Source: Selaginella tamariscina (taxonomy: Eukaryota > Streptophyta > Lycopodiopsida > Selaginellales > Selaginellaceae). From it: 64,000 bases of DNA. Within the stretch, counting starts at the first letter, position 1, and each line of letters starts with the position of its first letter. The stretch lies in NCBI GenBank assembly GCA_003024785.1, contig PUQB01000484.1, positions 62,001-126,000 of the forward strand. The letters run 5' to 3'. Positions 37,649-63,400 of this stretch are shown here, in pieces. A model generated the notes under the pieces. It did not search any database, had not been told where the DNA came from, and saw only the letters and a program-made list of their open reading frames with translations. Made by a program: the position numbers and the translations under genes.

Positions 37649-38800
37649 TCACAGTTCGTCATCATCCAACGGCACCAATTCGTCATCATCCAACGGCATC
37701 TGCATCATCAGTTTGGGCATTACTAAATTCATCCAACGGCGTGGGCATCGTTATCAATTCAGATTGAAAAGACTACCAGTTGAACGCCAGACTCATAGTG
37801 AACATTCTCCTGCCATAGTGAACATTCTGTTGAATATCCTCCTCCTGGCTACAGTGGATATTCTGTTGAATATTCTTCTCCTGTAGAATGTTCTCCTGCA
37901 TATCCATGTTATAAGGATTATTCTGTGGAATATCCCCTGCTGAATGTAGTGCATATTCTCTGCAATATTCTTCTCCTGCAGAATATTCAAGCCATAGAGA
38001 ATATTCTGATGAATATACTCCTCTTAAATTAATCCAACGGCGTGGGCATTCAGATTGAAAAGACTCGTTCATCCTCATCCACCAGTTGAATGCCAGACTC
38101 ACAGTGAACATTCTCCTTGTGGAACGATAGTATTCTGCAGAATATCGTCTTCCTGTTGAATATTCTCTTGCATATTCATGCCATAGTACATATTCTATGG
38201 CATATTCTCCTCTTGAAGAACATTCTCCTGCATATTCATGTCATAATGCATGGCATATTCTCTTTCTGTAGAATATTCATGCCATAGTGAATATTCTGCT
38301 GAACATCCTCCTCCTGTGGAATATGCTCCTGCATGTTCATGCCATAGTGGATATTTCTTTGAATATTCTTTTGCATATTCATGTCATAGTGCATATTCCA
38401 TTGCATATTCTCCACATAGTGAATATTCTTCTGAATATCCTTCTCTCCTAGAATATTCTCTTGTGTGTTCATGTCATAATGGATATTCCTTTGAATATTC
38501 TTTTTCTGTTATAATAAATTTTCTCTTAGAGGATCTTTCGCTTCCTTATCTTAATAACCCGTGGACTAAAAAGAACTGTTTTTTCATTTTATCATTATCA
38601 AATTTAAGGCAACTCCGACGTGCCAACCTAGGTTGATCTAGTAACTTATTATTAAAGTAATTAAACACTGTGTTAGTTCTATTACATTTAATGCATATGG
38701 AACCATCATATTTAAGATAAGCTTCTTCTGTTACTTTTGCATATACCGGGTCTTGGGTTTGCCTGTGTCCCCTTGTAAACGTTGGACTCTTTCTCGGCAT
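37649..38800 (-). pseudogene. Dof-like zinc-finger gene, copy 1 (inverted)
   Basis: Starts MPRKSPTFTRGHRQTQDPVY (ATG at 38798-38800), then a Dof-type finger: CIKC, 21 residues containing TNTVFNYFNNKLLDQPR, then RRSC. The third metal-binding Cys of CX2CX21CX2C is Arg here, so this finger is probably dead. The rest is a long tail of Asn/Gln/Met/His-rich repeats (NIHYGMNMQEHIPQEEDVQQ) whose frame shifts several times. It ends in an acidic repeat (MMQMPLDDDELVPLDDDEL) before TGA at 37649-37651. Upstream (38848-38862) a GGTATAAATGAA TATA-like leader is shared with the other copies. Dof proteins are plant DNA-binding regulators; the lost Cys and frame breaks suggest a decaying copy. Confidence 0.65.
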
Positions 38801-39379
38801 ACCTTCAATTGCCCTAAATTAATTATCTCTAAATTACTCATTTCATTTATACCCTTAATATTTTAAAAAGGTTAAAGACTTCTAACAGATTCTACGTAGT
38901 ACTTACGGGCTGTCTGCGGAGAATGTGGAGTACATGTATATATTACATTGGGAAAATTGTGTCGGAGACACACGCACGCACACACACACATATAACACAT
39001 GCATACACAAAAAGCCACAATGAACAATGGAAAGATTTCATCGTGGTTGTGACGGTTGACTAGAAAGCTTCTTCGGATATTTAGCATCAAACTTGAGAAT
39101 CATTACTGCCATGGATGTGTGTGCACGCATACACCGTATACATGTGCACATTTGTACATATAAAGACATGATATAAAAACTTCATGGAGGGAATAATATA
39201 CTCGGACACAAAAGCAGTGATAAGATATCAAGCAGAAAGGCAACGTGATTAACGATTCTGGATGGTGGTGGAATAATCCATTGGTTACAGAATATGTACA
39301 CACACATACACATGTACACACATATATATACCTCCAGTATATGTGTATGTGTACGTATATATTTACCTTTCGTAGCATA
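38801..39379. other. Spacer upstream of Dof-like copy 1
   Basis: Contains the shared leader and TATA-like region of copy 1 (about 38800-38895) and short CA tracts. No gene recognised. Confidence 0.45.
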
Positions 39380-39987
39380 TTTGTTCACTATTCTCATATA
39401 TATTTTAGTGTACCCATTGAATTGGCATGGATGCCCGCTATCATATGTCTAAAATAATATTGTTGGGTCAACACATTTTTATTAATTTAATTATTTGATA
39501 AAATTATTTTATTTATAAGAATTGGTTATTAATTAAAATAATATTAATTTAGATAGGTTTAAAGATATATAACATGTTTCTAATATATATTCCACAGAAT
39601 TTGTCTAGTACCGTTGAGGCAAACACATTTTTATTAATTTACCTATTTGATAGAGTTATGTTATCTGTAAGAACTGGTTTTAATTAAAATAATATAATTT
39701 AGATAGGTTTAAAAAATGATCTTATGACAAGAAATGCTCATGGTTAGTGTTCATATTCATTCTTAGATGAGAGAGAGAGAGAGAGAGAAATATCCTGTAC
39801 AACCTATACTCGTGTTAATACGTGTATACAACCGCTCTCTTAACTCACAATTCATTAGATTATTAAGTATTTGAAAGATATAACGTCGTTTGTTTTCCTT
39901 CGTTTTTAGTATTTTACCAATAAGGGCGCTGTCACTCCATGTATACAATAATATAAACGTTTTAAGTATGCACTTATATCAGGTATT

Positions 39988-40023
<36 letters not shown>

Positions 40024-40551
40024 TGCACCATGGAAGAAAAAGAAGGGAATATCCGATCCTATTTCAGCAGACCATTGTTCATTTACAAGGTTACCATTTA
40101 ACTGATTAGTAGCCCAAAGTGCACACACACACACATATAGTGTATATACAGTTTGTCTTATGTATACACTCACACACACACACACACCAATTATAGTCTC
40201 ATAAGACAAAACTGTGTTAACTAAGCAGTCCTATACATATAAACATACATCCATGGTTGTATATATATAACACATGTATATAATGTACCTACGCACACAC
40301 ACAAATATATATATATATAAACACACACACACACACACACATTTGTGTGTGTGTGTGTGTGTTGTATCCATACATATATAATTATACAGTTAAGCAACAT
40401 ATAGGTATATACATATTACATATGTATAATTAAAGTAAATATTTGAATATTCACTTTCACAAAAACATCGAGTTACCTCACATAGACAAAGCTACTCGTA
40501 ACTTACACGTGTAGCTTTCACACGCGCAGCGCGAGAGAGAGCAGCCTCCAT

Positions 40552-40589
<38 letters not shown>

Positions 40590-40756
40590 AGCTGAAAATG
40601 ATTAATTATGATATCAAATTACATTTCTTTGCTTAACCAAATGAAGTCATTAGTGAAAATTTTAAGACCACTGTACTGTACACACTAGTAACAAATGGCG
40701 GCTAGAAGAGATATAAAAACAGGAGAGAACCGGTGTATGTGTGTGTATGTTAGCAA

Positions 40757-40970: not shown

Positions 40971-41044
40971 ATCTAGCTGTCAGACGTCTTTACCTTTCAA
41001 AATGTTAAGGGTATAAATGAAGCGATTAGTTTGCAATTGAATAC

Positions 41045-41400
41045 ATGCTGAGCAACCTTCACAAGGGGACAGAGGCAAGCTTATGCACAAGCAAGAAAAG
41101 AAGCTCATCTAAACTAATACGATGGTTTTATATACATTCAATACAACGGAACTCATTTTAATAATAAGTTGCTAAGGGTAAAACGAAGAAACACTTCTTC
41201 TTTAGCCTACAGGTTACTAAGCCACGGAAGTGTAAAAATGTTGAGCCCATATTCAAGAGAACGATCACTGTGGAAACAGGAGGAGAATATTCTCTAGAAT
41301 AAGCACCATATACATGAGGATATTCTATAGAATATTCCATGGGAGGAGGATATTCACTACGACATGAACATAAGAACTGGAGTGGGATACGACGATGTCC
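41045..41400 (+). pseudogene. Dof-like zinc-finger gene, copy 2 (decayed)
   Basis: Aligns by eye to copies 1 and 3 from the leader (TTAAGGGTATAAATGAAG at about 41006) through the finger region (AATACGATGGTT... AATAATAAGTTGC) and the first GAATATTC repeats at about 41284-41360. The zinc-finger Cys codons are mostly lost, stops are frequent and the tail is cut short. A non-functional copy. Confidence 0.6.
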
Positions 41401-41819: not shown

Positions 41820-42760
41820 AATAGCATTTGAGAACCATACAAGTAAGCATGGAGCTTCTCAAAACCCCCAAACTACTACTAGACACTCCTTTATAATGGA
41901 GTAATTCACCTTTGTTGGTTGCAACATACAATTGATGTACACAATAGAATGACATTGACCAGGCACACTCGTACTCTCTTGCATCAACACACTCCCGAGA
42001 CCAATGTCAGAAGCATCCACACACAAGATGAAGGGATGAGTGTAATCAAGGTATGCCAAAATAAGAGGAGTCATCAACAGCTCCTTAATGCATGTTTGCA
42101 ATCCTTAAATTAAACAAGAGATGACATTGACGACTTCAATGATGCTTGCAATGGTGTAATATGATAAGAAAGATGATCAATAAAATGGCCAAGATATTGT
42201 ACCTTGTTAAGAAAGCGTTGCACATCGTTCACATACTTCAGCATAGGAACTTTAAAATTGCGATAAGTTTGTCATGATCAACTTGCAAATCTTTGTAGGA
42301 AATGCGGTAGCCAAGATAAGTGGTGTCCTTAGATCCAAACACACACTTAGACCATTTCAACTTCAAATTAATTTTTTACAATTGATTCAAACTTTGCGTA
42401 CATCACAAACATGCTTCACCCACATCCCTTTCAAATGGATTAAAACATCGTCAATAAAGTCAATAGTTACCTTCAGCATATTGCAAAGAACCTTATCTAT
42501 CATACACTGAAAAGTTGCTAGAGCATTGTTTAAACTAGAAGGCATTACCAAGAACTTATATACGCCAAATGATGTTCAAAAAATAGTCTTGGGAATGTTC
42601 ATGTCGATCATTGAAACTTGTCAATATCCACATGCAAGATCTAACTTGGTGAACCAATGGCTCTGCCATAGTCGATCAGGATATGAAAAAAGTGGGTAAA
42701 CATTCAGAATAGTCACATTATTCAATGAGTGATAATTAATGTCATCCTGGGTATTATTAG
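41820..42760 (-). mobile_element. Ty3/gypsy LTR-retrotransposon fossil, RT/RNase H part
   Basis: Minus-strand reverse transcriptase to RNase H region. The RNase H start reads HPFILCVDASDIGLGSVLMQ, the typical Ty3/gypsy junction. The copy is old and broken many times. Only the pol core remains, with no integrase or matching LTR pair recognised. Confidence 0.75.
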
Positions 42761-47499: not shown

Positions 47500-48292
47500 G
47501 AATCGTATACTATATCTTATACCCATTTAATTGGCATGGATGTCACGATCGTATTAATAAAATGTCTAAAATAATATTGTTGGGCCAACCCATTCTTATT
47601 AATAATTATTTATTTATAAGAACTGGTTATTAATTAAAATAATTTGATCCTGGCTCGTAATGAACGCAAGATAGGGGAGAAAAAGAAATCCGATCATATT
47701 TCAGCACCATTTAATTGATTAGCAGCCCAAAGTGCACACACAAACGCACATATAGTGTATATACAGTTTGTCTTATGAGACTATAATTGTATATTTGTGT
47801 GTGTATGTATGTAGGTGTTGTATACATACATATAATTATATAGTTAAGCAACGTATATTCACACGCACAAAACATCGAGTTCACATAGACAAAGCTACTC
47901 GTAACTTACACGTGTAGCTTTCACACCCAAGAGAGAGATAGAGCAGCCTCCATTGTATACATATATTATATAGGCTGAAAACTTGAATGATTAATTATGA
48001 TATTAAATTACATTTACTTTGCTTAACCAAATGAGGTCATTAGTGAAAATTTTGAGACCACATAGAAATAGGAGTATACTGTACACGCTAGTAACAAATG
48101 GAGGCAGAAAGACGATATAAAAACAGGAGAGAACCGGTGTGTGTGTGTGTGTATGTTAGCGTAGGGAAATTTACACTGAATATATTACATGTTTAACATC
48201 CCCATGTTTCCGTAAGCCAATCTCTCTCTCTCATACATCAGACCCATCTATATGTATTAGTTTTCAAGTTTCAATGTAATATATATGCGTGC

Positions 48293-48480: not shown

Positions 48481-48623
48481 AATTGATGTGCTACAGGAAG
48501 CCGTGTGCAAATGTATTGACAGATACTCTATAGAACGTTCTAGACATCTTTAACCTTTTAAAATGTTAAAGGTATAAATAAAGTGATTAATTTAGGGATG
48601 ATTAATTTAGGGTAAGTGAAGAC

Positions 48624-49746
48624 ATGCCCAGAAAGAGTTCAACGTTCACGAGGGGCAGAGGCAAGCTCAGACCCTGAATATGCAAAAGCAAGAGAAGAAG
48701 CTCATCTTAAGTACGATGGTTCTGCATGCATTCAATGTAAGGGAACTGACACAGTATTTAGTTACTTTAACAATAAGTCACTGGATCAACCAAGGTTGGC
48801 ATGTCGGACTTGCCCTAGAACTGGCAATGGTAAAACAAAGAAATACTTCTTCTTTGGAGTATGGATTACTAAGCCAAGGAAGCATAAAACAACCATGAAG
48901 AAGAATATTCAGCAGAATAATCACTATGGCACGAATATTCAGCAGGAGGAAAATATTCTACAGAATAGCACTATGGCATGAATATTATGCAGAATATTCC
49001 ACAGGAAGAGGATATTCACTATGGCAAGAACATGCAGAGAATATTCTACGGGAGGAGAACATTCCGCAGGATATCCATTACAGTATGAATATGCAGGATA
49101 GTATTCTGCAGGAGGATATTCAACAGAGTATTCACTACATGCAGGAGCATGTTCTACAGGAGGAGAATATTCAGACGGATATCTACTACCCGCAGGAGCA
49201 TAATACGAATATTCAACAGCATATTCACTACGCATATCAACAGGAAGAGAACATTCCGCAGAATATGCACTATGGCATGAAAACAATATTCAGCAGGAGG
49301 ATATTCTGCAGAATATGCAGTACGTGCAAGAGAATATTCCACAGGAGAAAAATAATCAGCAGGATATTCACTACAGCATGAATATGCAGGAGAATATTCT
49401 GCAGACAGAGAATATTGAGCAGCATATCCACTACGGCAATGAGGAGAATATTCAACAAAATATCCACTACGGCATGAATGTGCAGGAGAATATTTCGCAG
49501 GATGGCATGAATATGCCAGAGAATATTCAGCAGGAAGATTATGGCATGAATATGCAAGAGAATATTCATTATGAGATGGGTGCAAGTTCCATTCAATCTG
49601 AATTGACGCAGCTGCTGGATAAATTTAATAATGACTACCTGATGCAGATGATGATGCAGATGCCGTTGGATGACATCGAACAGATGCCGTTGGATGACAA
49701 CGAACAGATGCCGTTGGATGACGCGATGTGTGAGTTGTGCAAGTGA
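48624..49746 (+). CDS. Dof-like zinc-finger protein with Asn/Gln/Met repeat tail, copy 3
   Basis: Best copy of the family. The finger is CIQC, then 21 residues (including TDTVFSYFNNKSLDQPR), then CRTC. This is exactly the Dof spacing CX2CX21CX2C, with the Dof core YFNNxSLxQPR. A Lys-rich patch follows, then about 200 residues of repeats around NIQQ, ENILQEEN and HYGMNMQ. A segment SELTQLLDKFNNDYLMQMM and three 8-residue MPLDD repeats follow, ending CELCK. No intron is evident. The leader has GGTATAAATAAA, a TATA-like box shared with the other copies. The frame slips at a few points (a two-base difference from copy 1 near 48650, and in the tail near 48960 and 49320), either through decay or sequence error. 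Function as a Dof-type DNA-binding factor is inferred from the finger only; the tail is unknown to me. Confidence 0.65.
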
Positions 49747-60486: not shown

Positions 60487-63400
60487 GACACATGGGTGGT
60501 GATCTGGCCCCATGTGTCAGCACCACGTGTCACATGTGTGCCACGTGGCAAGGTCTCCTGTATATAAGCAGGGTTTTTGTAGCTGAATGATATCATATTT
60601 TGAATATATCTGCTCTTTCATTGGTGGAGAAGTTGGGTATCCTTTCTTCTGCCTTCCTTTTCTTGTTTCCATGACAATGAATATGGAGACGGCTTTAGCA
60701 TTATTGCTACTGCTATTGATGCACAAACAAGTTGTTGGAGCGCTTTGTTGAGGGTCCGTCCTCATCTTCCTGCCTGAGCCTCCTGCCGGGGGATCTGCTT
60801 CTAGTGCTCCTTTCATCTTCAGGCCACAAATCCGAGGGTTCGACCCGATCTTTTTGTGGTGATCCGGGAGATGATGTATACCACTGGTTTGATCATTTCC
60901 AAGTTATTGTTCGTTACCATGGTTGGGATGAGGCCCGTGCTCTCAGAGAATTCCCTACATGTTTGGAAGGCCTGCGCTCAAGTGGTATAATGGATTGGCT
61001 GCGGAGATTCAAGCCAATAGTAATCGGTTGACGGAATGCCTCAAACGTACGTTTGGCAAAGTTGAGGATTCAGATGATGCTTTCCAACAACTGCATGCGA
61101 TACGACAACATCCTGGTGAGTCTGTTATGCGGTTCAGTATTAGGTTCGGGGATTTAGTTCGGCGTGCATATCCTAACATGCCTGAGCCCATTAAGCTCGG
61201 TATGTTATGGCCAACTATGCGACCCGAACTTGTTCGATTCGTTCGGGCTCTTCGTCCTACCACATTGGAGGAAGCTTTTGCACTAGCTCAACGTTTGAGT
61301 TGGTGCCTGGTGAGGGCCGTGTCCCCTTGGGTTACCTGCTCCTCCTATTCAGCGTGCTGATCCAATGGAGGTTGACTGCTGCATATGTGCCCGCGACAAG
61401 CCTTTCGTGGTCGACCTCGGGGCCCACCCCGTGGACCACCTCCACGAAATCGTCCTGCACCTGCTCCAGTTCCTGCCCGTGGTGGTCAAAATCCACGGAT
61501 TCGTGACAGGAGGAATCGGAACAATGCAGGTCGACCCAATCAAGTTCATTGTTGGGCCTGTTGGGCACCTGGACATACTTGGCGGGCATGCGATGTGTAT
61601 CCTGATTGGCGTCCACCACATCCAGGCTGGCGACCATATGTTCCGGATGGTGTACCTGTGGCGGCCATTATGTCTGATGATGAGCTTCCAGATGATGCTT
61701 CTCTTGCGGGTGGATCTGTTGCGGAAAACCAGTAATCGTACGGGCGACGGAGGGATCCCGTGCGATGAAACTCCACCTCCATGTTTTTCCGCTATGCATA
61801 TCAAGGGTTGCAAGTTCCACCAAATCATCCAGTTTTCACATTTTCTGCACGAGTGAATGTTTCAGTCACATGTACTTGTGGATACAGGATCTAGTATGTC
61901 TTCCATAACTACTTCTCTGGGCATCGGTGCTCATTACCCTTGAGACGTGAGATAAGGTCTTGCACATTTTATATGGTAATGGGCAGTCTCGTGCAGTATC
62001 ACAGTACACCACTTCGACTACGCTGGTTATGGGTGCCAACTGTAAGTTTCCCTCTGGGTCTCTTAGGGTTGTCCCTTCCCAGGTCTTTGACATCATTCTG
62101 GGATGTGATTGGTTAAAGCAGTCGAAAGGTACATGTGATTTTTCACTCTCTCCTCCTGTATTACGCTTGGAGTCTGTGTCTTTGCAGTCTGTTCCTTTAC
62201 GTCCAGAGAAGCTTGTTGCTGTTTGTATCACGCATACAGCTCCTTTGATTCCGGTCTTGGGGTGGTGTTCATCTCAACAGGTTCAAATGCCGGATCCGTC
62301 ACCTGAGTGTCGAGCACACTGCATCGAACAACTTAAGAACAGTATGCAAGTTTGTTCAAATTTGATCTGTCCCAAGGTGCACGTGTGAAGACTCGACACT
62401 GTATACCCACCGGCAATGCAAAGCCTTTCAAAGTCCCGGTTCGACGCAGGTCACCAAAGGAGTTATCAGCCATGCGAACAGCTGTTACTGATATGATTGG
62501 TAAACGAGTGTGTCGTCCGTCACGGAGTCCATGGGCATGTGAACCTCATTTGGTTCCCAAGCCTGATGGATCTCTCCGATTTTGTGTGGATTACCGACCT
62601 CTTAACGATGTTACCATCAAAGATGTCTATCCACTTCCGAACTCTGCCGATCTATTAGATCGTTTGGGTCAGAGTCGATGGTTTACTAAGTTGGATTTGG
62701 CATCAGGATATTGGCAGGTTCCTATGGCTGAGGAGGATATTCCAAAAACGGCCTTCCGGACACCATTTGGTCTTTACGAGTTTTTGGTCATGCCTTTTGG
62801 ATTGACTTCAGCTCCTGCCACCTTTCAACGCATGATGGATGAGCTTCTTTCCGATATGCCTGATATCACTGCCGATTTTATCGACGATGTGCTCATTCAT
62901 GGGTCTGGTTCTTGGGAGGATCACATTCGTGATGTACGGCGCGTTCTTGATCGATTTCGAGAAGTTGGCCTGAAGTTGAAACTTGAAAAGTGTGTGTTTG
63001 GTTCGACCGACACCACTTACTTGGGTTACCGTATATCTCGAGAGGGTTTACAGGTGGATCCAATGAAGTTGCGAGCTGTTCGAGAGTTCCCTCGTCCCTA
63101 CAGTACAGGAAGTCCAGCGTTTCTTGGGCACGGTGCAGTACTTGGGTCGATTCATCGATCATCTTGATCGAACTGCCCCTCTTCGGGAGTTAGTTCGTCC
63201 ACAGGTATCTTTCAGGTGGACTCGCAGGTGTCAGCAGGCATTTGACCAGTTAAAAGAGTTCCTGACAACTCCACCATTGCTTCAATACCCAGATTTTACT
63301 CGTCCGTTCATTTTACGAGTAGATGCCTCAGATGTTGGTATTGGTGGTGTGTTGATGCAAACTGATGCTGTGGATTCTTCAATTCGACACCCGGTGGCTT

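Follow-up and report, generated by a model that had tools for sequence, protein, structure and literature searches.

Dof transcription factors (PF02701), of which CDF1 offers a solved example (PDB 8xuf), carry one finger near the N-terminus, with the spacing CX2CX21CX2C and a T.F.Y.NN....QPR..C..C core, and this finger is continued by an arm that reads RYWT.GG.LR.VP. The part of the domain holding the conserved Trp is said to matter for DNA binding in a review (PMC9897228), which also gives 19 Dof genes for Physcomitrella. Genes with more than one DOF domain are noted in mosses, three of them in Ceratodon and four in Physcomitrella (PMC10842470). For Selaginella tamariscina, about 14 Dof genes are implied by PMC13161181, where the 100 genes of wheat are seven times that number and the survey was carried out by BLASTP with E<1e-10. 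The gene family described here shares the spacing, the core and the N-terminal position of a single finger with the Dof factors, but it reads TGNGKTKK...RPRKRK in place of the arm and continues into E/N/Q/I/M repeats and a PLDD/PLDF end; moreover, the copy under study is broken. One finger joined to a tail of its own also sets the family apart from the moss multi-domain Dofs, as these are described in PMC10842470. In the literature searched, which covered few subscription papers and included PMC10842470, PMC9897228, PMC10541799, PMC8732986 and PMC13161181, a tail of this kind was not found on any Dof protein.

The focal locus lies in a 64-kb window, that is, the whole stretch of DNA that was analysed. 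Its finger and tail are real and the architecture is an unusual Dof-like one. Taking the evidence as a whole, we concluded that the locus is probably a pseudogene made by duplication of a multi-copy Dof-like gene, the intact members of which would be DNA-binding activators.

Shortened finger and broken frame of the focal locus

The finger is located at 48727-48813 on the plus strand, inside the ORF 48616-48981, in the frame of which it reads CIQCKGTDTVFSYFNNKSLDQPRLACRTC. This reading fits CX2CX21CX2C, the zinc ligands of the Dof family, and contains the core YFNNKSLDQPR; both features had been pointed out in the earlier note and both are present. The Pfam Dof profile matched the ORF with E 8.7e-11 and 42.2 bits, which is well above the curated cut-off of 26.6 and not a chance-level score, and the Dof domain of CDF1 (8xuf_C) was the sole solved chain matched at E<=1 (E 1.6e-4). 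The next Pfam match, CxC3 of KDZ transposases (PF18804; residues 55-97 of the ORF, E 0.0051), was below its own cut-off and far weaker than that of Dof. The Dof match spans positions 5-36 of the 59 in the profile, which bears out the remark that the remaining C-terminal finger region is absent. The match of the intact family member L014 (40 bits, cut-off 26.6) likewise stops at position 36. At the place where RYWT.GG.LRNVP is read in L001-L006, six canonical Dof ORFs found in this genome, the focal finger has no arm and, as seen from the translation and the alignment to L014, no Trp; the position expected for the Dof arm (RYWT.GG.LR) is taken by a diverged region with a basic patch at 48814-48901 (+). 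A complete Dof domain, which has 50-52 residues and includes the conserved Trp arm, is contained neither in the focal ORF nor in L014. Because the Trp-holding part is missing, DNA binding may, judging from the sequence, be altered or lost in the finger of this family. Modelling of the focal 121-aa ORF by itself with AlphaFold2 gave a mean pLDDT of 40.

The earlier note had taken finger and tail for one protein, and this does not hold for the focal copy. Its N-terminus is broken (48624-48677, +): the ATG at 48624 opens MPRKSSTFTRGRGKLRP, after which a TGA is reached at 48675, and the finger-bearing ORF has no ATG 5' of the finger. Two single bases have been lost ahead of the finger in the alignment to L014, and consequently the start codon is out of frame with it. 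The NIQQ / HYGMNMQ / ENILQ repeats announced for the tail are indeed found at 48902-49610 (+); they are imperfect, change frame and show in part a 60-bp unit (period 60, 1.9 copies at 49325-49438). They are followed at 49611-49746 (+) by an FNN..LM.MMMQ segment, three MPLDD units and a stop, the MPLDD units being a 24-bp tandem at 49657-49722 (2.8 copies, 97% match). The tail is spread over the ORFs 48616-48981, 48899-49381 and 49204-49746, which represent two different frames, and by reading it is also briefly in the third frame near 48981-49035. For the focal core, a count of six frame breaks was considered and rejected, as four of them are poor alignment after the basic patch; the L014 alignment supports two breaks, both ahead of the finger, and the changes 3' of it in the core add up to a multiple of three. 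Introns curing the breaks were also rejected by reading, because the N-terminal break consists of two single-base losses and the intact members are single open frames.

The focal locus is thus very probably a pseudogene copy. That it is instead a working gene, with frame breaks due to assembly errors, appears unlikely. The core has no in-frame stop by projection and the finger has a Ka/Ks of 0.16 against L014 (43 codons), which would suit a working gene and suggests that the focal copy decayed late if at all; however, at least two single-base losses precede the finger, the tail changes frame, and the same assembly has two canonical Dof genes in which the domain lies within an open frame, of 378 aa in one and 411 aa in the other. 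Furthermore, the full frame is missing in 26 of the 30 family loci fetched, and two more copies of the gene in the window are decayed, one (L030) at 37654-38884 on the minus strand, recognized by self-comparison and minus-strand reading, and a third, fragmentary one (w41k) at 40982-41371 (+), recognized by self-comparison.

Intact family members and selection on finger and tail

The focal ORF gave 42 genome matches, and at the weak end of these stand Dofs of the canonical and other kinds. Thirty family loci were fetched, which represent 29 places, L029 and L038 overlapping each other. An open frame of 279 aa, running from M to the PLDD/PLDF end, was found at four of the 30 (L012, L013, L014 and L022), where a short N-terminus, the shortened Dof finger, the basic patch TRPRKRK, imperfect E/N/Q/I/M-rich repeats with NIQQ/MNMQ motifs and the acidic PLDD/PLDF end share one frame. 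Since it occurs as a single open frame at these loci, the combination of finger, basic patch, repeats and acidic end is not the product of chance. The idea of an offshoot of Dof that bears a repetitive and acidic tail therefore survives for an amplified family with intact members, though not for the focal copy, which would be a pseudogene. The family gene has one finger and appears to be single-exon. L012 and L013 are identical in protein and differ from L014 at two residues, and L022 has a short altered stretch (a small frame change) past the basic patch and stops two residues early. All four sit in one array group (contigs C43, C275, C125 and C203), and the array cores L011-L023 are identical to L014 or one indel apart over the aligned part. 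Because they are nearly identical and belong to one recent array group, the four loci may amount to a single independent intact gene, some of them being perhaps assembly duplicates. A search with the focal tail gave 70 matches, which, except those on C1085 and C575, lie on contigs bearing the finger family.

For the whole core, the Ka/Ks between L014 and the focal copy was 0.24 (102 codons, Ks 0.39). Comparison of L014 with L010, L024, L026 and L027 gave 0.13-0.19 for the finger and 0.23-0.51 for the core, and higher values were obtained in some decayed pairs (1.32 for the core of L025-L029 and 0.58 for the finger of L030-L009). The finger was under purifying selection, and its low Ka/Ks indicates that the protein was constrained before the focal copy broke. 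As the finger core stayed under this selection without the arm, the family would, if such fingers are expressed, bear on the question of which part of the Dof domain can be dispensed with. The tail, on the other hand, is not clearly constrained: Ka/Ks of the acidic end of L014, calculated on few sites against 11 copies that do not belong to the array group, was 0.72-1.99.

Whether the intact members are DNA-binding transcription factors with an activating tail is, on sequence features, an evenly balanced matter. Such a protein would enter the nucleus via its basic patch and would bind AAAG-type DNA with the Dof finger, while its acidic-hydrophobic end would activate transcription. Of the two labels offered for the tail in the earlier note, "activation-type" would suit this end, as the last 36 residues of L014 include 10 acidic and 5 aromatic ones. 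Prion-like domains of the usual type are Q/N-rich and charge-poor. The 122-residue tail of L014 has 28.7% Q+N and 23.7% D+E+K+R, and with so many charges the label "prion-like" fits poorly. It is also conceivable, though we regard it as rather doubtful, that the intact members are expressed with the finger alone being of importance and the tail being a functionless minisatellite. Several frames on both strands are open through the repeat DNA, and the relaxed constraint on the acidic end points the same way, but the repeats and the acidic end are kept in the frame of the finger at four loci. Length changes of the acidic end relative to L014 are multiples of three in seven copies (L010, L024, L026, L027, L029, L033 and L034), which also disagrees with a functionless tail, although in four others (L009, L025, L028 and L030) they are not.

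Leader, flanks and spread of the copies

A family leader of approximately 95 bp lies ahead of the ORF (48530-48623, +), as delimited by genome matches and the alignment of 12 copies. It contains the TATA-like word TATAAATA at 48573-48580 and AAAG/CTTT words at 48548, 48555, 48568 and 48580. The 12 aligned copies have invariant blocks in common, together with the TATA-like word and the AAAG/CTTT words; the latter were observed 37 times versus 17.2 (sd 3.9) in 500 letter shuffles, an excess that is not independent evidence for binding sites because the copies are related. The segment 48525-48626 has 28 matches in the genome and 27 of them are beside a family finger match (the exception is C130:9601), thus the leader is family-specific and not a dispersed repeat. 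A TATA-like word flanked by AAAG/CTTT words would make self-regulation of the gene possible. Two further features of the leader, at 48533-48544 and 48584-48612, may be there by chance: a heat-shock-element-like word, GAACGTTCTAGA, and a 15-bp tandem, TGATTAATTTAGGGA (1.9 copies), which contains TTTAGGG, the plant telomere repeat word.

The focal locus would have arisen by DNA duplication from the multi-copy Dof-like gene. The 47511-48160 (+) segment upstream of it shares pieces with 39399-40754 (+) in the self-comparison of the window (79% alike for 47823-48160 and 76% for 47511-47643), which indicates that the duplication also took in part of the flank. The family copies are clustered and most of them have since been broken. 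Neighbouring copies on C41, C43, C275 and C364, as well as three on C125 (385223, 404825 and 422636), are spaced by 17.8-21.0 kb, and the copy at C125:337783 is 47 kb from the next one. In one C125 unit, exons of a JmjC-type gene adjoin the Dof-like gene on the opposite strand. The last of these exons matches PF02373 (E 5.5e-11), and two earlier exons, when joined, gave no Pfam match. The first exon was found beside L011-L023 and L036, that is, at 14 of the 30 family loci, a number that may be low given that the fetched loci span 1.5 kb on each side; the 64-kb window has no JmjC match. Tandem units of about 18-21 kb containing a JmjC-type and a Dof-like gene are seen in L059-L060 (C125:386000-404800).

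It is very unlikely that a transposable element codes for the finger protein and that the family copies are insertions. The copies are indeed many and dispersed, and a Harbinger-like fragment was recognized by reading in one array unit, at about 11.1-11.6 kb of the C125 unit, but the leader is found almost exclusively beside the gene and the JmjC gene adjoins the array copies. The sub-cut-off match of the focal ORF to the CxC3/KDZ-transposase profile, which could also hint at such an origin, has no counterpart in L014 at E<=0.1. In addition, the upstream flank homology stops at different places between pairs, from about 95 bp to more than 1 kb from the ATG when the groups are compared, a pattern to be expected of decaying duplicates rather than of an element bounded by set ends. 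Neither the flank comparison nor the leader search pointed to a transposon having such ends, and no relative of L014 came up when viral contigs were scanned in a pattern-limited way. By these indirect means, the finger was not traced to any known transposon protein, an origin that the earlier note had considered. Elsewhere in the window, a retroelement polymerase-like ORF (Gypsy-like by reading) is located at 62337-63167 (+), which is 67% alike over 368 bp to 42299-42665 of the other strand.

Dof-like fingers elsewhere in the genome

The Dof profile gave at least 118 rows in the genome, which merge to at least 107 places on 68 contigs; the row and place counts are lower bounds, as 150 of 254 candidates were scored. 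Seven places reached at least 79 bits and 100 fell between 28.5 and 52.4 bits. The latter are partial matches, and some of them may be exon pieces or pseudogenes. Another place lies within 30 kb of 51 of the 107, and 11 places have two rows, in which they are similar to the moss multi-domain Dof genes noted in PMC10842470. In the 20 fetched stretches, single-finger frames with CxFCG-type fingers were recognized by reading (L048, L052, L054, L058 and others). In a tree of 26 fingers, built from 22 loci and the window and thus covering part of the 107 places, the three focal-family fingers join at 99/97, while the deep branches are weak and long-branch joins call for caution.

A broader picture, which we put forward only tentatively, is that shortened Dof-like fingers have radiated in this genome on a large and little-described scale. 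The radiation would consist of several separate clades with new architectures (a repeat plus acidic tail, two fingers, or a Y/N/Q/G-rich tail), some of which would be amplified as part of duplicated units about 14-21 kb long (in one instance beside a JmjC gene), the focal family standing behind its own promoter with Dof-type words. Such a set of transcription factors would turn over fast and be partly self-regulated, like the zinc-finger families that have expanded in animals. Counts of Dof genes usually come from full-domain searches, and we would expect the BLASTP survey at E<1e-10 (PMC13161181) to miss many shortened fingers. If these are expressed, a plant genome can hold many more Dof-type regulators than the counts show, and the DNA-binding arms and tails of the additional ones would be unlike those studied.

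Further Dof-like frames were noticed in the fetched stretches. Two-finger frames are present on both strands of L051 (C460:614500-624499), with both fingers in one ORF, and in L040-L044 and L053, where the ORFs are partly split. Open Dof-like frames of 348 aa (L050:2662-3705, C872) and 326 aa (L049, C789) have a C-terminal half that is rich in Y, N, Q, G and S and, by its look, is closer to the prion-like type than the tail of the focal copy. On C544, C1341, C921, C57, C616 and C493, other Dof-like places, apart from the focal family, follow one another every 12-19 kb approximately.
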